From: a virus
Strand: one strand, 5' to 3'
IMG/VR virus record: IMGVR_UViG_3300042879_002956
Span: 1 to 34,711 of that record
Length of the DNA stretch: 34,711 nucleotides
Part shown: positions 15,082 to 28,597 of the stretch, one piece after another
Layout of the letters: each line of letters opens with the position of its first letter
Numbering within the stretch: position 1 is the first letter of the stretch
Program-made: the position numbers and the translations under genes
Notes under the pieces: model-generated
Seen by the model: only the letters and a program-made list of their open reading frames with translations
Told to the model about the DNA's origin: nothing
The model's database searches: none

Positions 15082-15098
15082 GGTTAATCCTTAAAAGG

Positions 15099-15176
15099 CG
15101 GTGCCCGAGGGACTCGAACCCTCGACCTGTTTCAAGTGCCGCGCTTGAAACCACTCTACCACTGAGCTAGGGCACC
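15099..15176 (-). tRNA. Aberrant tRNA-like gene, isotype undetermined
   Basis: On the minus strand a 7 bp acceptor (GGTGCCC/GGGCACC), positions 8-9 TA, a D-arm GCTC AGTGGTA GAGT and a T-arm GAGGG TTCGAGT CCCTC are all canonical. The anticodon region is not: GTTTCAAG and CTTGAAAC form a perfect 8 bp stem closing a 7-base loop CGCGGCA that lacks U33. Read at the loop centre the anticodon would be CGG (Pro), which is doubtful. The arm is six bases longer than normal. CCA is not encoded (GCCT follows the acceptor). Two further pairs could extend the acceptor to 9 bp. It lies between the decoration-type gene and the first fibre gene, co-oriented with them. Confidence 0.6.
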
Positions 15177-21832: not shown

Positions 21833-22194
21833 TTAGTCTCAGTTTTACTCTTGAGCAAAAAGGGGTCGGCCTCAATAATCTCTTGCACCTGTTTTGGTGT
21901 AAGCGTCTCTCTGACCGTGATCTCTTGCACCTGCTCGATCTTGTCAGTCTGTTGAAGAAGCTGCTTACCTAGCCAGATTAGCATAGAAGTATTACCCTTT
22001 TTCGCTGCTTCTAATTGCCAACGCCTGAGTGAGATTTTCAGGTTTTCTCGGCCTTTTGCGAGTTCCTCCGAAAAACGGCCATCAAGAGTGTCGACCGAAC
22101 AGCCTACGACAATAGCGATCTCACTTGTCTTGCAGCCGATTGAGGCAAGGTCTTGAACGAGTTTTGGGTCGATATTGAGCTTAGGCCGCGCCAT
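21829..22194 (-). CDS. terS: Terminase small subunit
   Basis: This 121-residue protein has an N-terminal helix-turn-helix-like segment (IDPKLVQDLASIGCKTSEIA with VVGCSVDTLDGRF). A helical region follows (LRRWQLEAAKKGNTSMLIWL), then a charged C-terminus. LRRWQ..AA..GN..MLIWLGKQ is typical of small terminase subunits, which form a ring that recognises the packaging site and recruits terL. It is directly upstream of terL with ATGA coupling and overlaps the methyltransferase gene by 14 bases. Confidence 0.88.
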   Translation of the reverse strand: MARPKLNIDPKLVQDLASIGCKTSEIAIVVGCSVDTLDGRFSEELAKGRENLKISLRRWQLEAAKKGNTSMLIWLGKQLLQQTDKIEQVQEITVRETLTPKQVQEIIEADPFLLKSKTETK

Positions 22195-23386
22195 TATCTA
22201 CCCCTGCTTTAATATCGTCCCATGCCACGCCGTCTTCGCGGTGTGCTTTCTTGCCCGTGAACTTCTGCCAGCGGTCGAGAATAACGCCGCAGTAGTGAGG
22301 GTCTAGCTCCATCATGAAGCAATGACGGTCAGTTTTTTCACAAGCGATTAGCGTTGACCCTGAGCCGCCGAAAAGATCGAGCACAAGCCCTTTAATCTTT
22401 GAGGAGTTTCCGATTGCATGTGCTACCATGTCCACTGGCTTCGGAGTCGTATGACCGCTCACGCTTTCGCGACCAAACTCCCAGACCGAGGTTTGCTTCC
22501 GATCCGAATGCCAAGCATGCGCAGCGCCTTCCTTCCATCCGTAAATACAAGGCTCATGGCGGGACTGGTAATCGGTCTGGCTTAAGACGAGTTGGGGCTT
22601 TACCCAGATAACCATGCTTGAGAAATGGAAGCGTTTTCGGAACTCCTGATGAAACAGGTCTGCGCAGCGGTCTGAATGAAAGCAGTAAATGGGCGCACCA
22701 TTTTTTATCGAAAGCAAGTAATGGTCGAAAACCGCCGAAAGCAGATCGGAAAGCCCATCGCGCGAGTCGTTGTTAATCCCCTCGTAGTCCACGCCATATG
22801 GCGGATCAGTGAAAACCATATCGGCTTTCTTCCCATCCATCAGCCGCTCAACATCGGTGATCGCAGTCGAGTCCCCGCACATGAGCCTATGGTTCCCAAG
22901 GATATAGACCTCGCCCTTGACTACCTTTGGCTCTGGGAGCGCGTCTGGTACCTCGTCCTCGTCGCACTGAGGCTCAAGCTTTTCAATCGGCTCAAGTACG
23001 AAGTCTTTAATTCCAAGCAGGTCAATATCGAAGTCAGGGCCAAGGTCTGTCAGGTCTGCATTAACTCCGGACAGGTCTAGCTCTGACCATGACGCAATGG
23101 AATTGTCAGAGATCGTGTCAGCGTACTCTTGTTCCTCGCTGTCATAGTCTTGAAAACTGACCGGGACCTCTTTCCACTTGAGAAGCTTTGCAGCCTCAAG
23201 CCGACCATGCCCTGAGGTAATAAATCCCGAGCGTTTACTCACCTTAATCGGATAACGCCAGCCTTGAAACTCTAAGATTTTAGCAAGCCGTTCAATTTGA
23301 TCCTTTGGATGACTGTTACGATTTAAAGGGTTTGGCTTCAATTCTTTGACGTTGACCAGCGCATCATGCGGGCAATGTACAATCAT
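22181..23386 (-). CDS. ParB-like domain / DNA methyltransferase fusion
   Basis: This is a 401-residue two-domain protein. Residues ~5-95 carry a ParB/sulfiredoxin-like nuclease-type domain (LKPNPLNRNSHPKDQIERLA and GFITSGHGRLEAAKLL). Residues ~155-375 form an amino-methyltransferase with catalytic DPPY at 194-197 and the SAM-binding LDLFGGSGST at 336-345, the order of beta-class enzymes that make N6-methyladenine or N4-methylcytosine. No cognate restriction enzyme is nearby, so it is an orphan, probably protecting phage DNA or marking packaging or replication sites. It overlaps terS. ParB-methyltransferase fusions are known in phages. The start has GGAG seven bases upstream. Confidence 0.88.
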   Translation of the reverse strand: MIVHCPHDALVNVKELKPNPLNRNSHPKDQIERLAKILEFQGWRYPIKVSKRSGFITSGHGRLEAAKLLKWKEVPVSFQDYDSEEQEYADTISDNSIASWSELDLSGVNADLTDLGPDFDIDLLGIKDFVLEPIEKLEPQCDEDEVPDALPEPKVVKGEVYILGNHRLMCGDSTAITDVERLMDGKKADMVFTDPPYGVDYEGINNDSRDGLSDLLSAVFDHYLLSIKNGAPIYCFHSDRCADLFHQEFRKRFHFSSMVIWVKPQLVLSQTDYQSRHEPCIYGWKEGAAHAWHSDRKQTSVWEFGRESVSGHTTPKPVDMVAHAIGNSSKIKGLVLDLFGGSGSTLIACEKTDRHCFMMELDPHYCGVILDRWQKFTGKKAHREDGVAWDDIKAGVDNGAA

Positions 23387-23681
23387 TGGTCAACTCCTGG
23401 CTACTTTGTTCTGCTCTAGCTCGCCCGCGTCTTTTAGCTCTTTCTTCATTCGCAAGCCTTGCTTGAATTGCTTGTTGCAATTGCAATAAATCCGCCACTG
23501 ACCAATCTTTAAACCGCTGATGATAGTAGTCAGTGACTTTATCCTCAATCAATCTCTCTAATTGATCTTGGAGCTTTGCTAGATTCATTGGAGCTTTAAA
23601 CACGCGTTCAACAAATTCGCTGGCTGCGTCGATCTCGCGTGCGCAGACTTCTGGACCTTTTGCTGTAAACAAAGACGACAT
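23364..23681 (-). CDS. Hypothetical protein heading the packaging operon
   Basis: This 105-residue mostly helical protein contains EIDAASEFVERVFKAPMNLA, LQDQLERLIEDKVTDYY and a basic stretch LANEERAKRRGRARAEQ, suggesting DNA or RNA contact. I do not recognise its family. It overlaps the ParB-methyltransferase start by 23 bases and is the first gene after a 212 bp gap, so it opens the late operon. It could be a small regulator or a terminase accessory factor, but nothing proves either. Confidence 0.6.
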   Translation of the reverse strand: MSSLFTAKGPEVCAREIDAASEFVERVFKAPMNLAKLQDQLERLIEDKVTDYYHQRFKDWSVADLLQLQQAIQARLANEERAKRRGRARAEQSSQELTNDCTLPA

Positions 23682-23893
23682 GGCTGGACTCTATCTCTTT
23701 AATTTACAGCTTGCAATACAAAACTAATCTTTCGTTAATTTTCTCAAGCACACTGTCAAATCGTCTTTTTGTCGCTGTCTAATCTTTGGACACCCGTTTA
23801 GATCGTCTCTAAGGCCACTAGCTTGCCCGTGGTTGCGTTTTTGCCATGTACTTAAGGGGTAAGGCAGGGGTCGGGGTAAAAATGCGTTATAAG
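23682..23893 (-). promoter_or_regulatory. Intergenic region upstream of late operon, possible promoter
   Basis: This 212 bp separates the replication genes from the packaging genes, all on the minus strand. No credible gene is present: the longest minus frame from an ATG here runs nine codons. A perfect TTGACA hexamer occurs on the minus strand (23754-23759), but the sequence 17 bases downstream (AACGAA) is a poor -10. The TTGACA could belong to a late promoter needing an activator. No terminator was found. Confidence 0.3.
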
Positions 23894-24406
23894 TCAATTG
23901 TGCGTTAGTTGTGCCGAAACATGATCAATCAATTCAGTTTCCTTGCTGCCTGGCCTGCGATTGAGCAGCGCTCGCGCCAGTCCTCTCCACTGCGCCTTGT
24001 AAACCGAAACGGTTTCATCTTGCACCATTTCGCAGACTCGTTGCCACCCGCCTTCTCGAGCGATGATCTCCCACGCGATCTCCCCGACGAACTCACGCGC
24101 TTTTTTTGGATTGTTCCATCCGAATCGCGAAAGCGCCTCTGGAATGCGCGAGGCAATCTCGGCTGCCCGGTCGTCGAGATTTTCACTCGGCGCAACTCTT
24201 GCGCGAATCATGGCTGGCAAGGGGAAACGCGTCACTTTCGGATCTCGGCGAATATCTTGAAACGCCTGAAGCAACGCGCCTTGCGGTAAATCTGCGAGAT
24301 CCTCGGCGTACATAGCCAGTACGCGATCAGGAAACTGCGTCTGGTAATAAGCGCATAGATAAATTAACTGCTGCTGTATCCAACCCGTACTAGCTTTGGA
24401 GTCCAT
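23894..24406 (-). CDS. Putative replicative helicase loader
   Basis: This 170-residue protein contains FPDRVLAMYAEDLADLPQGA, LLQAFQDIRRDPKVTRFPLP and AMIRARV. This is the helical pattern, with Asp/Leu repeats and a TRFPLPA turn, seen at the N-termini of phage helicase loaders related to lambda P and the G39P/DnaC group. The rest is helical (EFVGEIAWEIIAREGGWQRV) and ends in a charged tail. It follows the initiator-like gene with a 17-base overlap, a lambda O/P-like pairing. No AAA+ ATPase motif is present, so it is not a full DnaC. The call rests on motif similarity and position. Confidence 0.55.
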   Translation of the reverse strand: MDSKASTGWIQQQLIYLCAYYQTQFPDRVLAMYAEDLADLPQGALLQAFQDIRRDPKVTRFPLPAMIRARVAPSENLDDRAAEIASRIPEALSRFGWNNPKKAREFVGEIAWEIIAREGGWQRVCEMVQDETVSVYKAQWRGLARALLNRRPGSKETELIDHVSAQLTHN

Positions 24407-25268
24407 TTTGAAGCCTTATCAACTGTTGCTGCAGGTAGTCAAGTCTTTCCTCGCCTTTTGCTTCCTGGCTTGTCGTCATGCGGCCAGTGTCGAGCGCTAG
24501 TGCGATCTTGTTTTGATTCTGAGCGAAGGTTTCAAAATCGTGGGCTTTGGTCAGAAACCAAGAATCGTTCATCTGGCAATAGGCCGAGATCAGTTCACAT
24601 GCCCGCTCGATTGCCACCGACGCTAGGTAGCGTTTGATTCCTCCGAGCGTCTTGCCATCGAGGAATGGTCGCGTTCCCTGCCCGTAACGTTTTGCGTAAG
24701 CTGCCACGTATGCGGCGATGAACTTACCCGACAAATTCGGTTGGACCGAATCGGGATTCGTGTCGTTTGCGTTAGCAAACGTTTCTTGTTTTTTTGAGCG
24801 AGAGTGAGAGGGAGAGTAAGAGCTAGAGTTAGAGTAAGAGTAAGAGGGTTGGGTTTGCTTCGTTTTGCTTGGTGTTTGCTTGGCGTTTGCTTGGATGGTA
24901 TCTGACTCTTTTTGTCTCTCTTTAAATTGACCAGATTCGTCTCTTATAAGACTCTCAGACGCCTTTACTCCACCTTTGCGCCCCGCTTCAATTCGAGCAG
25001 ATAACCAACCAAGATGGTCTTCGGCGCCAGACAAATACACCCCTTCTTCAGTCACTTTTGCCAACCCAACTTCAAGCAGTTTGTCGGCATCTTTTAGACA
25101 GTCAAAAATGGTTTTTGGGACTAATTTTTTGTCGCGGTAGTATTGTTGTGCAACGCGTACGGCTTCAAAAAAAACGCCCGTTGCATAAGCTGCTGACCCT
25201 AGCTTTTCACCTAAAAGTGTTCGTCTTGGATCGCTCCACCATTTGTCTTCAATATTGATTCTCGGCAT
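24390..25268 (-). CDS. Replication initiator / replisome organiser-like
   Basis: This 292-residue protein has an N-terminal winged-helix-like region (~1-95: EKLGSAAYATGVFFEAVRVA then LLEVGLAKVTEEGVYLSG), as in phage replisome organisers. A disordered linker (~100-175) contains a hexamer-encoded Ser/Tyr tract (YSYSNSSSYSPSHSRS). The C-terminal helical region (~180-265, IKRYLASVAIERACELISAY) could bind the helicase or loader. It is the first gene on the minus strand after the divergent control region. GGGG precedes the ATG. The linker DNA carries repeats that may be the origin, as in lambda O. Family membership is inferred from layout. Confidence 0.55.
   Translation of the reverse strand: MPRINIEDKWWSDPRRTLLGEKLGSAAYATGVFFEAVRVAQQYYRDKKLVPKTIFDCLKDADKLLEVGLAKVTEEGVYLSGAEDHLGWLSARIEAGRKGGVKASESLIRDESGQFKERQKESDTIQANAKQTPSKTKQTQPSYSYSNSSSYSPSHSRSKKQETFANANDTNPDSVQPNLSGKFIAAYVAAYAKRYGQGTRPFLDGKTLGGIKRYLASVAIERACELISAYCQMNDSWFLTKAHDFETFAQNQNKIALALDTGRMTTSQEAKGEERLDYLQQQLIRLQNGLQS
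24735..24892. repeat. Candidate replication origin: iterons and inverted repeats
   Basis: Within the initiator gene, four GTTTGCTT-like units start at 24853, 24862 (GTTTTGCTT), 24874 and 24885; their TTTGCTT cores are 10-11 bp apart, about one helical turn. The same GTTTGC core occurs in a perfect inverted repeat, CGTTTGC GTTA GCAAACG (24764-24781). A second inverted repeat, ATTCGG TTGGA CCGAAT, lies at 24735-24751. Between them are about 50 bp of GAGNNA hexamers (24799-24848). The layout recalls the lambda origin inside gene O. Because the repeats also encode a low-complexity linker, replication function is unproved. Confidence 0.5.
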
Positions 25269-25292
25269 AGTTTTCCCCTTTTTTGTTTGACG

Positions 25293-25386
25293 GGGAACAT
25301 CGCTTCAGGCATCAAGAATCTTGAGTACAAATCATTGCGATTTCTTTCTTGCCCGAAGTAATGTTCCCGCATTCTTCGGGTTTTTT
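25293..25386 (+). promoter_or_regulatory. Candidate antiterminator/terminator switch in divergent region
   Basis: Segment A (25293-25310) can pair with segment B (25351-25368) through 16 of 18 positions including one G-U. Segment B also supplies the 5' arm of a terminator whose 3' arm is 25370-25380 followed by six T. The two structures cannot coexist, as in transcription attenuators. Between A and B lie two short inverted repeats, TCAAG AAT CTTGA (25312-25324) and AAATC ATTGC GATTT (25329-25343), which could be protein-binding sites. No convincing promoter was found upstream on the plus strand (a TTGACG at 25287 lacks a -10). Confidence 0.45.
25352..25386 (+). terminator. Rho-independent terminator in the divergent region
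   Basis: CCCGAAG pairs with CTTCGGG, and after a bulged T, AATG pairs with CATT, giving an 11 bp stem with a six-base loop. Six T then ATTT follow on the plus strand. It stands before the first plus-strand gene, so it would stop a short leader transcript unless it is bypassed. Confidence 0.7.
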
Positions 25387-25439
25387 ATTTCCATATTTTC
25401 CGATCAATGTAAAACTGAAGTTACCGTGACGACGGAGAA

Positions 25440-25625
25440 ATGGAGCCATATATGGAATACAAAATTAAAGAACCAAGTCTGAAAAAGGGCAATCAAAAGG
25501 ACGCATCCGCGTACAGCGAAAAGGTCGCTTCGGTTGCTCCGCGCAAGTCTGCTCCCCTCGATGCTAAGGGGCAAACGGGCAAAAAAGATGAGAGCCCGTA
25601 TAAAGAGCATTGCAAAGATGAATAA
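25440..25625 (+). CDS. 61-residue basic peptide, unknown
   Basis: This 61-residue Lys/Glu/Ser-rich peptide (MEPYMEYKIKEPSLKKGNQK onward, ending YKEHCKDE) looks disordered. Two ATG codons are possible. The first has GGAG four bases before it; the second, four codons on, has GGAG six bases before it. It is followed by a strong terminator, so it could be a self-contained transcription unit under the leader switch. No family is recognised. It may be a host-takeover or DNA-mimic-type peptide, but nothing in the sequence shows that. Confidence 0.5.
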   Translation: MEPYMEYKIKEPSLKKGNQKDASAYSEKVASVAPRKSAPLDAKGQTGKKDESPYKEHCKDE

Positions 25626-25660
25626 GCGCTTTTAGCGTCGTCTTTGCAGAGATGCCATGG

Positions 25661-25695
25661 GAGGGGTAGGAATTGGGGCCTATCCCTCTTTTTTT
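25661..25695 (+). terminator. Strong rho-independent terminator
   Basis: GAGGGGTAGG and CCTATCCCTC form a 10 bp stem with one G-U pair around an eight-base loop, followed by seven T. It ends the short transcription unit of the 61-residue peptide, 35 bases after its stop codon, and isolates it from the following early genes. Confidence 0.85.
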
Positions 25696-25697
25696 GC

Positions 25698-25726
25698 TTT
25701 ACACTGTCCGACAATTAATTTAACAA
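25698..25726 (+). promoter_or_regulatory. Candidate promoter for the early operon
   Basis: TTTACA (one mismatch to TTGACA) and TAACAA (three mismatches to TATAAT) are separated by 17 bases, immediately after the terminator. A start six to seven bases beyond would fall on the ATG of the SSB-like gene, giving a leaderless message, which fits the absence of a Shine-Dalgarno there. The weak -10 lowers confidence. Confidence 0.4.
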
Positions 25727-25732
25727 ACCGTC

Positions 25733-26092
25733 ATGTCACAGAATAAAGTTCATCGCATCCGTGTGGATGGTCTTGATCGAAGTAAATTTGAAGGGCGTTA
25801 CGTTGCCATGCTTGCGCTCGATCACGCCGCCGATTCTAAGCGGTTTTGGGTGAGTGAGAAACAGAAGAACTGTCTTGAGAAGAACCTCGACTCAATCACC
25901 CTCTTTGCTGCATTCGATTACAGCAATACGGAGAAAGGCCCGCGTTTCATTTGGGCGTCTAGTGACCGTGGCTGGCTGACTAAGGCGTTTATTGAGTCCC
26001 CCCCTCGCCCGAAGCCTGACCCTGTCAAAACTCACGTTGTAGAGGCTGTAGTACCCGCTGTTACCTGGACTGACGAGGATATCCCGTTTTGA
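25733..26092 (+). CDS. Candidate single-stranded DNA-binding protein (SSB-type tail)
   Basis: This 119-residue protein ends TWTDEDIPF. An acidic run ending Asp-Ile-Pro-Phe is the hallmark of bacterial SSB tails, which recruit repair and replication proteins. The N-terminal ~85 residues (NKVHRIRVDGLDRSKFEGRY, RFWVSEKQKN) could be a small beta barrel but do not match classical SSB sequence, and a Pro-rich linker (ESPPRPKPDPV) precedes the tail. The gene sits just before an ERF recombinase, a natural partner on single-stranded DNA. No ribosome-binding site is visible. Its stop overlaps the TTG start of the next gene. Confidence 0.6.
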   Translation: MSQNKVHRIRVDGLDRSKFEGRYVAMLALDHAADSKRFWVSEKQKNCLEKNLDSITLFAAFDYSNTEKGPRFIWASSDRGWLTKAFIESPPRPKPDPVKTHVVEAVVPAVTWTDEDIPF

Positions 26093-26280
26093 AAGTGCAA
26101 ATCGACATTGAGAAGTTTCCCCGTGCCGCAACCAAAGACCGGATGATCTCGTTTCGCCTTACTGAGGCGGAATACTCGGCTTTGAAAACCTACGATAAAA
26201 ACGTCTCGCGAACCGTTCGCGCCTTGATCGCTCAGTTTTGCGAAGAAGTAAGAAAGGCTAAATTCAAATGGAGCAAATAG
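26089..26280 (+). CDS. Ribbon-helix-helix-like small DNA-binding protein
   Basis: This 63-residue protein starts at TTG inside the previous stop (TTGA); a GTG two codons on is an alternative. It has a ribbon-like strand followed by two helices (MISFRLTEAEYSALKTYD, then VSRTVRALIAQFCEEVRK), the pattern of Arc/CopG-type ribbon-helix-helix proteins. Such proteins usually bind operators as dimers, and the two inverted repeats in the divergent region are possible targets. It is the only clear regulator-like gene seen. Confidence 0.5.
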   Translation: MKVQIDIEKFPRAATKDRMISFRLTEAEYSALKTYDKNVSRTVRALIAQFCEEVRKAKFKWSK

Positions 26281-26867
26281 ACAAATTGGCGCTAGCGCTT
26301 ATCGCCGCTCAATCTCGCATGAAGCCCGCCGTTAAGAGCGCGGTAAACCCGTTTCATAAGTCCCGATATGCTGACCTCGAATCAGTATGGGAGTCAGTCA
26401 GTCAGGTACTCGCCGAACATGGGCTAGGTATTAGCCAAACGTTTCGCTGTGATGGTGAGCTTCCCATTCTAGTGACCCGACTCATTCACACGTCCGGGCA
26501 ACAGTTGATCTCCGAAATTCCCGTCATCGCTGCGAAAAAGGACCCGCAGGGCTACGGTTCCGCAATTACTTATTTTCGGCGCTATGCGCTACAGGCTATT
26601 CTTTCGCTAGTCACGACAGACGATGATGGCGAAGGCGCATCTGAGCGCGTTCAACATTCATCGAATGATTATCAACTAGTTAAGGGACCATTTAAAGGGC
26701 GCACCATTGGCTCATTGACCACGGATGAGCTTCGCAGCCTAGTCGATTCCGTCGATAATCATTGCCGCGAGCAAAAGACCGCTCTAGTCAACCTTCCGCA
26801 AGACACTCAAGAAACTTATTGGAAGGTTCGCGCTGAGATAACAAAAAGGCAGGGAAATGATAAGTAA
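26268..26867 (+). CDS. ERF-family single-strand annealing recombinase
   Basis: This 199-residue protein shows the ERF signature in its first ~125 residues: SAVNPFHKSRYADLESVWE, LAEHGLGISQTF, KKDPQGYGSAITYFRRYALQ and TTDDDGEGA. ERF proteins anneal complementary single strands and circularise or repair phage DNA, as first known from P22 Erf. The C-terminal ~65 residues contain GPFKGRTIGSLTTDELRSLV, which resembles small add-on modules seen in related phage proteins. AAAGG lies 10 bases before the ATG. It overlaps the preceding gene by 13 bases and sits beside the SSB-like gene. Confidence 0.9.
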   Translation: MEQIDKLALALIAAQSRMKPAVKSAVNPFHKSRYADLESVWESVSQVLAEHGLGISQTFRCDGELPILVTRLIHTSGQQLISEIPVIAAKKDPQGYGSAITYFRRYALQAILSLVTTDDDGEGASERVQHSSNDYQLVKGPFKGRTIGSLTTDELRSLVDSVDNHCREQKTALVNLPQDTQETYWKVRAEITKRQGNDK

Positions 26868-27171
26868 GTGTCCCAAGTGCGGTTCTATTGGCTATGATCC
26901 CATTTTGCTCCGCTGTAGAGCATGTAAGGTCGTAGCCAATGGGCCGCTAGTTTCATACGCTTGGCGGCATTTTTGGGCGAATCGGATAGTCGCTCAATTG
27001 CTAGGGGGGGCGCGCATTGGACACGTTGCCCCTCCTAGTGCCAGCGTCTATGATCCGATCACAGGCTATCCGAGCGCGACCGATCGTTATGTCGCAAAGC
27101 TTGAAGCGCAAGATCGCGCGGACATGGAACGAGTTATTGCTGAGACGGCTAGGTACTTTTACAGCGACTAA
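26857..27171 (+). CDS. Zinc-ribbon-like protein
   Basis: This 104-residue protein has CPKCG at residues 5-9 and CRAC at 20-23, a C4 zinc-ribbon arrangement. A mixed region follows (YAWRHFWANRIVAQLLGGAR), then a charged C-terminal helix (DRYVAKLEAQDRADMERVI). It overlaps the ERF gene by 11 bases, with AGGGAA before the ATG. Function is unknown. Small zinc-ribbon proteins next to recombinases may bind DNA or regulate. Confidence 0.6.
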   Translation: MISKCPKCGSIGYDPILLRCRACKVVANGPLVSYAWRHFWANRIVAQLLGGARIGHVAPPSASVYDPITGYPSATDRYVAKLEAQDRADMERVIAETARYFYSD

Positions 27172-27182
27172 AAATAAAGAAT

Positions 27183-27257
27183 TCCGGGGTAGTTCAACGG
27201 TAGAACGTTCGGCTGTTTCCCGAAGTGTTGGTGGTTCGAGTCCGCCCCCCGGAGCCA
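27183..27257 (+). tRNA. tRNA-Asn (anticodon GTT)
   Basis: The cloverleaf is acceptor TCCGGGG/CCCCGGA, D-arm GTTC AACGGTA GAAC, anticodon arm TTCGG CTGTTTC CCGAA and T-arm GGTGG TTCGAGT CCGCC (one G-U), with discriminator G and an encoded CCA. The anticodon GTT reads Asn codons. Position 37 is T, where most tRNA-Asn have a purine, so decoding efficiency could be altered. It lies between two early genes on the same strand. Confidence 0.88.
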
Positions 27258-27284
27258 ATAACTGAATGTTTTTAAGGGGGAACA

Positions 27285-27530
27285 ATGGAAAAGCTAAAAA
27301 CCGATCACGCACCTATTGTGCAACGTCTGATCGAAATTGATCCAGACAGACTGATTGAACTAGGGCACCGAATTAAAGCCGCCGCGATGGATTCGGCGTT
27401 TCCCGGTGACACAATCATTATGCCGTTTACTGATGCGTTATCGCTTGTTTACCATCCGGACCGAGAATTCTGTAAACCCAACCATAAGCTCGGTGACCAA
27501 AACCCAAAACTAACGGACTCACTTAGTTAA
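27285..27530 (+). CDS. Small early protein, unknown
   Basis: This 81-residue protein (MEKLKTDHAPIVQRLIEIDP onward, containing DTIIMPFTDALSLVYHPDRE) has a helical N-terminus and a polar C-terminus ending KLTDSLS. I recognise no family. AAGGGGG precedes the ATG. Its stop overlaps the start of a 22-residue membrane peptide as TAATG, linking it to the following genes. Confidence 0.6.
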   Translation: MEKLKTDHAPIVQRLIEIDPDRLIELGHRIKAAAMDSAFPGDTIIMPFTDALSLVYHPDREFCKPNHKLGDQNPKLTDSLS

Positions 27531-27544
27531 TGGCCTTGGGTTTT
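27499..27544 (+). terminator. Weak hairpin at the 3' end of the 81-residue gene
   Basis: AAAACCCAA pairs with TTGGGTTTT, with an inner AACTAA/TTAGTT stem. It overlaps the end of the coding region and the first codons of the membrane peptide, and is followed by ATTTGG. It is AT-rich and could modulate coupling as easily as terminate. Confidence 0.3.
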
Positions 27545-27598
27545 ATTTGGGTTGTAGGGGCAGTCCTTTTGTTTGTCTTTATCAGGGGCACTAAATGA
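27530..27598 (+). CDS. 22-residue single-pass membrane micro-protein
   Basis: The frame MALGFIWVVGAVLLFVFIRG plus TK is flanked by two overlapping codons: its ATG shares a base with the upstream stop (TAATG) and its stop shares bases with the next ATG (ATGA). Eighteen of its first 19 residues are hydrophobic or small, one membrane span, followed by a basic end that should stay in the cytoplasm. Double coupling strongly suggests translation. The function is unknown; inhibitory or lysis-modulating roles are possible. Confidence 0.55.
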   Translation: MALGFIWVVGAVLLFVFIRGTK

Positions 27599-27849
27599 CA
27601 ATATTCAAACAAGCGCTTTTTCATTTCGGTGAAGGACACCAAATTCTAAAAGCTATTGAAGAGCTTGGTGAATTGTCAGTTGAACTTGCACGTTTCAAAC
27701 GATGTCCCGATAATATAATCGAATGCATTGATGAGATTGCCGATTGTTACATTATGCTTGCGCAATTGCGCGAGGTTTTCGGAACAGATCGAATCGATCA
27801 ACGGATTGTTGAAAAAACCGAGCGCTTGAAACGAATGATTGAAGCTTAG
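27595..27849 (+). CDS. MazG-like nucleotide pyrophosphohydrolase
   Basis: This 84-residue all-helical protein has IEELGEL (residues 21-27, supplying EExxE) and DEIADCYIML (46-55, supplying ExxD), the metal-binding acidic motifs of MazG-type pyrophosphohydrolases. These enzymes hydrolyse nucleoside triphosphates, and phage versions may lower ppGpp or clean nucleotide pools. It is shorter than host MazG but normal for phage single-domain forms. AGGGG lies six bases before the ATG. Confidence 0.75.
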   Translation: MTIFKQALFHFGEGHQILKAIEELGELSVELARFKRCPDNIIECIDEIADCYIMLAQLREVFGTDRIDQRIVEKTERLKRMIEA

Positions 27850-27859
27850 AGGGGGGGCT

Positions 27860-28018
27860 ATGCCATTAAAAAAGGGAGTTTCTCAAAAAACCGTCAGCAA
27901 AAACATCAGCGAGTTAATCACCGCTGGCAGACCGCAAAAGCAAGCCATCGCCATCGCTCTAGCCACAAAACGGGAATCGATCAGGAAATGGAAAAACAAC
28001 CGAAAAAGCCAGAAGTGA
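27860..28018 (+). CDS. 52-residue basic protein resembling DUF6496-type peptides
   Basis: This 52-residue gene follows a strong AGAGGGGGG ribosome-binding site. The sequence KKGVSQKTVSKNISELITAG RP..QKQAIAIAL matches the pattern of small phage and bacterial proteins that share K.GYSQKTISKNI...GRPQKQAVAIAL. It continues with a basic tail (ESIRKWKNNRKSQK). It overlaps the next gene by 31 bases in another frame. Function is unknown. Confidence 0.65.
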   Translation: MPLKKGVSQKTVSKNISELITAGRPQKQAIAIALATKRESIRKWKNNRKSQK

Positions 28019-28230
28019 GAGACCCTGTTCCGTTTGTTAATAACTTCAGTCTTTGCGAAGGCGGGTGTGGAAAAAAAGTAAATAATTCTCACAACAAATG
28101 CATGGACTGTCGCCGATCAACTTGTAAATCGTGCGGAAAACAGTTTCTCGTTAACAGAGGGCTGATTGATCGTTGCGGTCCTTGCCGCTCAAAGTATCAA
28201 AAACGATCACAACATCTTGAAGGGATCTAG
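27988..28230 (+). CDS. Cys-rich zinc-ribbon protein
   Basis: This 80-residue protein has Cys pairs CEGGCGKKV, CMDCRRSTCKSCG and CGPCRSK, enough for two zinc sites. The middle CKSCGKQF...CGPC is a classic treble-clef/zinc-ribbon layout. AGGA sits just before the ATG. The 3' 80 bp overlaps, on the opposite strand, the end of the VRR-NUC gene. Its role is unknown. Confidence 0.55.
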   Translation: MEKQPKKPEVRDPVPFVNNFSLCEGGCGKKVNNSHNKCMDCRRSTCKSCGKQFLVNRGLIDRCGPCRSKYQKRSQHLEGI

Positions 28231-28597
28231 CCACCATGCAGATCGCGCCTAGGTTCGCCATTTGCTGCAAAAATTGTTGTTGCTCTGGACTGACTCGCCC
28301 CTTTGCACTCTTTACCTCAATGCAAAGCATCTTTTGATTCCAAATTCCTAAAATATCGGATGATCCTTTTTCGCTAAACTTGCTTCGGTCTTTTCGATAA
28401 ACGCCCTTAGTTGGATCGTAAACGCCCATGGATTTATTTTTCCACGCTTTACATCCCTTTTGCAGATTAAGCCAACCGAGAATCTGCTGTTCAATTTCGC
28501 GTTCTGATAGCATCAATTTTGTTTTCAATTCGTTCAAGTCTCCGTGCAATTTCAGTTTGGCGCTCGCGAGCGATTTCTTTAGTTTCGAAGGTTTCAT
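28151..28597 (-). CDS. VRR-NUC domain nuclease
   Basis: This 148-residue protein carries the VRR-NUC/PD-(D/E)XK pattern: Glu35 region SEREIEQQ, KGSSDILGIW with Asp81, and CIEVKSAKGRVSPEQQQFLQ with Glu94-x-Lys96, then LGAICMVARSLQDVV. Phage enzymes of this type act as Holliday-junction or replication-associated nucleases. The first ATG overlaps the upstream membrane protein by about 100 bases; ATG at codon 29 (start 28513) is an alternative with no clear ribosome-binding site. It lies at the far end of the late operon and is convergent with the early block. Confidence 0.8.
   Translation of the reverse strand: MKPSKLKKSLASAKLKLHGDLNELKTKLMLSEREIEQQILGWLNLQKGCKAWKNKSMGVYDPTKGVYRKDRSKFSEKGSSDILGIWNQKMLCIEVKSAKGRVSPEQQQFLQQMANLGAICMVARSLQDVVIVFDTLSGKDRNDQSALC

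Follow-up and report, generated by a model that had tools for sequence, protein, structure and literature searches.

We describe here a small gene of an uncultivated virus whose product is most probably (probability about 0.8) a member of a new sequence family of phage single-stranded DNA-binding proteins (SSBs) with an OB fold, which would coat single-stranded DNA (ssDNA) and, by means of an SSB-type C-terminal tail, would recruit the annealing protein of the phage and enzymes of its host. The window, that is the whole stretch of 34,711 nucleotides that was analysed, is the record of an uncultivated virus of 34.7 kb, whose minus strand carries the genes for terminase, portal and major head proteins. 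The analysis established the open reading frame (ORF), its family, the conservation of the tail, a predicted OB fold, the gene neighbourhood and an alternation with canonical SSBs belonging to the PF00436 family.

A preliminary description had proposed a gene for a protein ending in TWTDEDIPF after a Pro-rich linker. The ORF was confirmed (Table 1), and the linker of the window copy is indeed Pro-rich (PPRPKPDP...), with a pLDDT of about 50 in blocks 91–110 of the AF2 model of the window protein. Formation of an SSB-type tail by chance is improbable, because among the window's 3274 stop-to-stop segments the loose tail pattern has one other match (57 aa, ending in ESVPF), and, judged from composition, a given C-terminus would read [DE][DE]D[ILVM]PF with a probability of about 2e-7.

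Table 1. Features of the window discussed in the text.
Feature	Position	Strand	Basis or remark
SSB-like gene, 119 aa	25733..26092	+	ORF and translation; ATG start; ends ...VTWTDEDIPF-stop
Predicted OB-fold core, residues 1-86	25733..25990	+	AF2 models, fold comparison, alignment A6
Variable low-confidence linker, residues 87-111	25991..26065	+	pLDDT, nonsynonymous differences
SSB-type C-terminal tail WTDEDIPF, residues 112-119	26066..26089	+	[DE][IL]PF end in 11/11
61-aa conserved protein, function unassigned (..KKDES.YKE.CKDE)	25440..25625	+	ORF; recurrent module neighbour
Small ribbon-helix-helix-like protein	26089..26280	+	ORF, TTG start; weak phrog_876 match, E 0.0016
ERF single-strand annealing protein	26268..26867	+	PF04404 E 7e-25, phrog_2324 E 6e-36
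tRNA-Pro(cgg)	15097-15176	-	
tRNA-Asn(gtt)	27183-27257	+	Just downstream of recombination genes
Divergent genes beside module	23894-24406 and 24390-25268	-	First: phrog_10105 (unknown), E 5e-12
VRR-NUC / Holliday-junction-resolvase-like nuclease	28154-28597	-	PF08774 E 2e-7

No convincing match for the 119-aa protein was found in Pfam, NCBIfam, PHROGs, PDB sequences, cultured phages or plasmids. Single-sequence searches of phages (best E 5–9), plasmids (E 7), viral_contigs and genome_contigs gave no real relative, a search of genome_contigs with alignment A2 also gave none, and two other family members found nothing among cultured phages (best E 1 and 0.3). Homologues were reached through the terminase: relatives of the window terminase comprised 21 contigs, 8 of them with an SSB-like homologue, and a terminase profile led to 67 contigs, including five further ones with diverged members. 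The profile search for remote homologues proposed in the preliminary description ended in this way with 13 other uncultivated phage contigs, or 14 together with the window, which encode 11 distinct proteins (those of L010, L012 and L013 are identical, as are those of L019 and L027).

Alignment A6 of the 11 distinct proteins, showing 29–56% identity to the window copy, contains 12 invariant residues (S41, K43, Q44, D62, R71, F72, A75, W81, L82, F86, P118 and F119). The tail, whose loss in homologues the preliminary description had named as an objection to an SSB, is kept in all 11 of them as an acidic C-terminus of the [DE][IL]PF form, as in PF00436 SSBs. A scan of viral_contigs with the A6 profile, which is driven by conserved peptides and may be escaped by more distant members, returned the same 13 contigs and none besides, which limits the family, as far as it could be traced here, to the phage group of the window. 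No description of it was found in the literature searched by titles and abstract starts, partly among the matches listed.

Several weak matches were set aside. That to phrog_16822 (E 0.094) was taken as a chance one, the same profile having matches among control genomes too (6 of 14, E up to 10); phrog_18898 (one member, E 0.004) and phrog_10426, an integrase (two members, E 0.03), were not common to the family and were treated as chance. A protein of Lactobacillus phage Lv-1 (E 9 in the phage search, 5e-4 in a small set of 4397 ORFs) is encoded between holin and lysin genes, is rich in Lys, Glu and Ala by eye and was rejected as a relative by judgement, and a match in Astolliot was dropped, lying on the strand opposite to the gene annotated there. 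A search with the ERF protein led to other phages (L002 and L003); the tailed protein of L002 reached only E 6.9 against the SSB-like family, and the tailed small protein of L003 was not among the listed matches to it. These two small proteins match phrog_18187 (function unassigned; L002:6572-6859 and L003:7219-7446, E 7e-6 and 0.026), are encoded 0–1 gene downstream of ERF and end in NDFPDSDIPF and PKDEDIDF; they possibly belong to another uncharacterised tailed SSB-like family.

The SSB-like ORF is under purifying selection, and its linker is looser than the core, yet not free. In 15 pairs of six members the core showed 0.09–0.42 nonsynonymous versus 0.54–0.82 synonymous differences per site. 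In the tail, with its eight residues, the nonsynonymous ones were 0–0.31, and the synonymous values, being noise at so short a length, were set aside. In the linker, nonsynonymous differences amounted to 0.54–0.63 against the window copy and 0.17–0.47 among the other five members. The net charge in the six members is +3 to +5 in the mildly basic core and −2 to −3 in the tail.

The preliminary description had suggested an unrecognised OB fold, and structure prediction supports it in two members, no unrelated fold being seen. The AF2 model of the window protein (pLDDT 77, pTM 0.60) comprises b1 4–16, b2 22–29, b3 36–41, a1 42–50, b4 57–62, b5 71–76 and a2 79–87, after which there is no structure. 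The model of the L010 protein, 42% identical to the window copy (pLDDT 85–91 in ten-residue blocks 1–80, pTM 0.58), shares with it the order b1-b2-b3-a-b4-b5-a, that is OB topology; both were built from shallow alignments holding the same 6 sequences. The order of elements of the five-stranded barrel b1-b2-b3-a-b4-b5, which defines OB-fold membership, is thus predicted in both models.

In Foldseek the best matches, E 0.025 in PDB and 0.0062 in BFVD, fell short of 1e-3, and RuvBL chains from chromatin remodellers took up much of its PDB lists at TM of about 0.2–0.3. The best 50 rows of VIA-align for the window model consisted mostly of OB folds, with the metal chaperone SilF on top (Z 8.2, 70 aa, 2.4 A), and, at Z values under about 8, which may reflect just a common arrangement and not kinship, LEF-3 (Z 7.4 for 7yny and 7.2 for 7ypo, with ssDNA), eIF5A (6.6), RecO (6.3), Mycoplasma SSB 2hql (6.1, 78 aa, 3.5 A), RecG (5.6), the mitochondrial SSB Rim1 (5.5), RPA and Stn1 (5.2). 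Several B subunits of AB5 toxins, which like SilF and eIF5A are OB folds, were also among these rows. The L010 model gave a similar list, with RecO at Z 5.9 and the plasmid protein PrgE with DNA at 5.6. SSBs of the gp2.5, gp32 and Enc34 types were absent from the best 50 rows for both models, which excludes nothing. None of these structural matches decides the fold by its statistics, but since the two models agree and a run of OB proteins appears among the matches, the core of the SSB-like protein likely adopts an OB fold.

Downstream, the stop of the SSB-like gene overlaps the TTG start of the ribbon-helix-helix-like ORF, the end of which overlaps ERF, and these overlaps suggest that the three genes form one coupled operon. 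The gene had been placed next to both ERF and a ribbon-helix-helix gene in the preliminary description; the latter does come next, and ERF is one gene away. L049, L050 and L052 lack the ribbon-helix-helix-like ORF, and their SSB-like gene immediately precedes the annealing gene; elsewhere, including several relatives with RecT, this ORF separates the two. L017 adds an HNH endonuclease-like ORF (L017:7046-7561, by eye) between the ribbon-helix-helix-like gene and RecT, found in none of the other compared relatives and possibly a homing insertion.

In L010, L015, L016 and L019 the SSB-like gene is preceded by a homologue of the 61-aa protein, as judged by eye, and a short protein resembling it was found, also by eye, between the SSB and annealing genes in L023, L056, L061 and L091 and ahead of the ribbon-helix-helix and RecT genes in L066 and L026. 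The 61-aa protein of the window ends KKDESPYKEHCKDE, and the similar short protein of the sister lineage has ..VKGKDAGQYSKAGIQDQKKQAGA (by eye). Short-unit tandem repeats near the recombination module (L023:1886-2144, L010:3507-3882 and L015:5439-5844) are open in several overlapping frames (GYGSGYGDG..., TVTVPV..., ATATAPAP...). As for other surroundings of the module, the pair of divergent genes resembles, by eye, a phage replication initiator with a helicase loader, a combination that would suit a phage replicating with the replisome of its host; the VRR-NUC-like nuclease is a further recombination gene close by, and within positions 22001–28000 only the tRNA-Asn matched DNA of the phage collection at E 1e-5 (Microcystis phage MaAM05).

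In 13 of 13 SSB-like stretches reaching it, an annealing gene (ERF or RecT) is located downstream on the same strand; L016 and, in the PF00436 lineage, L072 end before any annealing gene. Four own-built HMMs were used to compare 19 terminase-related stretches with ERF or RecT, the window included, an SSB being counted when upstream on the same strand: 13 carried an SSB-like gene, four a PF00436-type SSB (L023, L056, L061 and L091), two neither and none both; 47 of all 70 stretches had no match to any of the HMMs. A fifth PF00436 SSB, in the record of L069, has ERF just downstream (L098), so an annealing gene follows the SSB of this lineage in all five cases where it is visible. L026 and L066 have RecT and neither type of SSB, and the SSB-like gene is thus dispensable in some relatives; a sub-cut-off PF00436 match in the L026 record (E 0.0045, a 41-aa frame with a stop) was not counted.

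The alternation was also seen at the level of whole records, many of which are short fragments. The SSB-like family was found in 14 of 67 records and PF00436 over the cut-off in seven (those of L023, L056, L061, L069, L072, L075 and L091, all ending in DIPF), with no overlap and with no PF00436 match in the window record. These 67 records consist of 17, searched for the SSB-like family with A2, and 50, searched with A6, and include L002 and L003 though they are no terminase relatives; L007, L008 and L011, which bring the total to 70, were covered by the HMM scan only and gave no match. One first-look candidate in each of G025, G030, G045 and G064 failed scoring as a member of the family.

In a terminase tree of 19 rows, six PF00436 rows fall on one side of a branch with support 100/100 and the SSB-like family on the other, and the two rows with neither SSB are among the latter; the tree was built without L091, whose terminase is partial, and without the duplicates L012, L013 and L027, and the row of L075 fills 12% of the columns. 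Because the alternation follows one lineage split, it represents a single swap (or a single gain plus a single loss) rather than many independent events. Gene order differs between the lineages, L023 having, besides the 61-aa-like protein, further ORFs over 1.2 kb between its PF00436 SSB and the annealing gene, and hence they share a neighbourhood, not an identical slot. The SSB-like protein is best read as an OB-fold SSB in the role of the canonical one.

This bears on the alternative of the preliminary description, a tail-mimic that captures host SSB partners. In such a reading a small folded protein would coat no ssDNA, and its SSB-type tail would capture or divert partners such as RecO, Exo I, PriA or the chi subunit of the polymerase. 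It agrees with the tail being among the most constant parts, along with a few core residues, and an OB fold does not imply nucleic acid binding, since such folds have proteins, sugars and metal ions among their ligands too (SilF and the AB5 B subunits are examples among the matches). However, in related phages the place of the SSB-like protein near the annealing gene is taken by a PF00436 SSB with a tail of this kind, so an OB-fold SSB is better supported; moreover, purifying selection acts on the slightly basic core, in which K43, Q44, R71, F72 and W81 are retained. We consider mimicry very improbable.

Somewhat less improbable, yet still hardly to be expected, is a recombination mediator, whose OB core would bind ssDNA or the annealing protein and act as a RecO-like loader on DNA covered by host SSB rather than as a bulk coat. 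OB domains of RecO are among the structural matches of both models, the constant company of ERF or RecT would suit such a loader, and in nine SSB-like records without a PF00436 match the main coat may be supplied by the host SSB. A mediator would, however, be expected to read an SSB tail rather than to carry one, and the alternation with PF00436 SSBs also speaks against it.

The two families resemble each other in the tail: WTDEDIPF, FTEDDLPF and MTEADLPF occur in the SSB-like family, and ITDEDIPF, FTEDDIPF and QTEDDIPF in the PF00436 lineage. Apart from this, the last eight codons of L050 (641-664, SSB-like) and L056 (5099-5122, PF00436) are identical in 22 of 24 bases; of the 55 between-family pairs this one ranks first, the next reaching 19 of 24, and the identity may be due to chance; it is compatible with grafting while being too short to show it. 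PF00436 bacterial SSBs (E. coli SSB and phage copies) have in common with the SSB-like family an OB-type topology, predicted here, a linker, a DIPF-type tail and a position upstream of an annealing gene; they differ in that no sequence relation of the cores was detected and in a core of about 105 aa versus about 86 here (by trimming).

This likeness leaves some room for the view that the protein has the same function and is an extremely diverged PF00436 SSB, and not an unrelated OB family that displaced one, and the topology, tail and neighbourhood common to the sister lineages are what it would predict; we regard it as doubtful. The absence of a classical SSB sequence from the N-terminal region, mentioned in the preliminary description, was borne out by the PF00436 profile, which matched none of the 11 members at E up to 10, in a scan where HMMER filters drop most weak matches. 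In hhalign the cores, represented by shallow profiles (11 and 5 sequences) in which a distant kinship could go unseen, matched at a probability of 0.3 (E 0.18), which is background (unrelated controls 0.1–0.4), whereas each family found its own other half at 99.7–99.9; with the tails included, just the last 15 columns aligned between the families. Going further, it may be speculated that an unrelated OB core replaced the canonical SSB in one lineage, the tail having stayed or been re-grafted, and that selection by annealing and host partners keeps the last eight residues and not the DNA-binding body. This scenario seems unlikely to us; if true, any OB body could be fitted with the tail as a portable docking plug.

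Other phage SSBs offer parallels to the proposed OB-fold SSB. The SSB of HK620 (N4-type, DUF669) is also a small phage protein encoded beside an annealase, Sak4, which it stimulates, and its tail ending in PF matters: Sak4 requires the last six residues to bind coated DNA, and most of the stimulation depends on them (PMC5928155). This tail is NDYPPF versus WTDEDIPF here, and the partner is Sak4 versus ERF or RecT; no Pfam match to DUF669 was obtained, and hhalign against the single HK620 sequence gave a probability of 0.1. T7 gp2.5 and Enc34 ORF6 (DUF2815) are phage OB-fold SSBs with an acidic disordered C-terminus as well (PMC5686142). They are larger than the SSB-like protein (gp2.5 has 232 aa), no Pfam match to the gp2.5 type was obtained, and hhalign against the single gp2.5 sequence gave a probability of 0.3. 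Their tails are presumably not of the DDIPF type. The lactococcal proteins Orf14bIL67 and Orf34p2 form a phage-only SSB family that was found by OB modelling and is encoded beside an annealing gene (PMC3208561, PMC8093625); they are described as unlike E. coli SSB in the C-terminal part (PMC3208561), and the comparison made here consisted of the general Pfam and PHROG scans.

Links between annealing proteins and SSBs have been reported. Almost 80% of erf genes in Firmicutes phages accompany ssb genes (PMC8093625), and a Redbeta mutant without SSB binding retained 0.03% of recombination in vivo (PMC8303780). Annealases of the RecT type are said to depend mainly on the last seven residues of SSB, which in the Pseudomonas tail DSFDDDIPF are common to E. 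coli, and in recombineering a phage annealase can be used only as far as it suits the SSB tail (PMC10711431).

The protein most probably acts as follows. The 86-residue OB-fold core would coat phage ssDNA, and the disordered linker would let the WTDEDIPF tail reach out to readers of bacterial SSB tails. The tail would dock on the phage's own annealing protein, apparently encoded in the same operon (ERF here and RecT in relatives), and probably also on host replication and repair enzymes, which are likely partners because it matches the bacterial consensus (DSFDDDIPF in Pseudomonas). Coated ssDNA could thereby be passed to the annealing protein, to ERF in the case of the window, and in the sister lineage this role would fall to an ordinary PF00436 SSB, whose tail is of the same kind.

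Summarizing, a real, conserved phage protein family that has no label in the libraries searched adds to phage SSBs an SSB-like sequence family which these profile libraries do not recognise and which accompanies annealases of two kinds, ERF and RecT. The related phages present a natural swap experiment, with a common neighbourhood and the same kind of tail on a different body, which makes it testable whether the tail alone decides compatibility with the annealase and the host. This is also a practical question for recombineering (PMC10711431).
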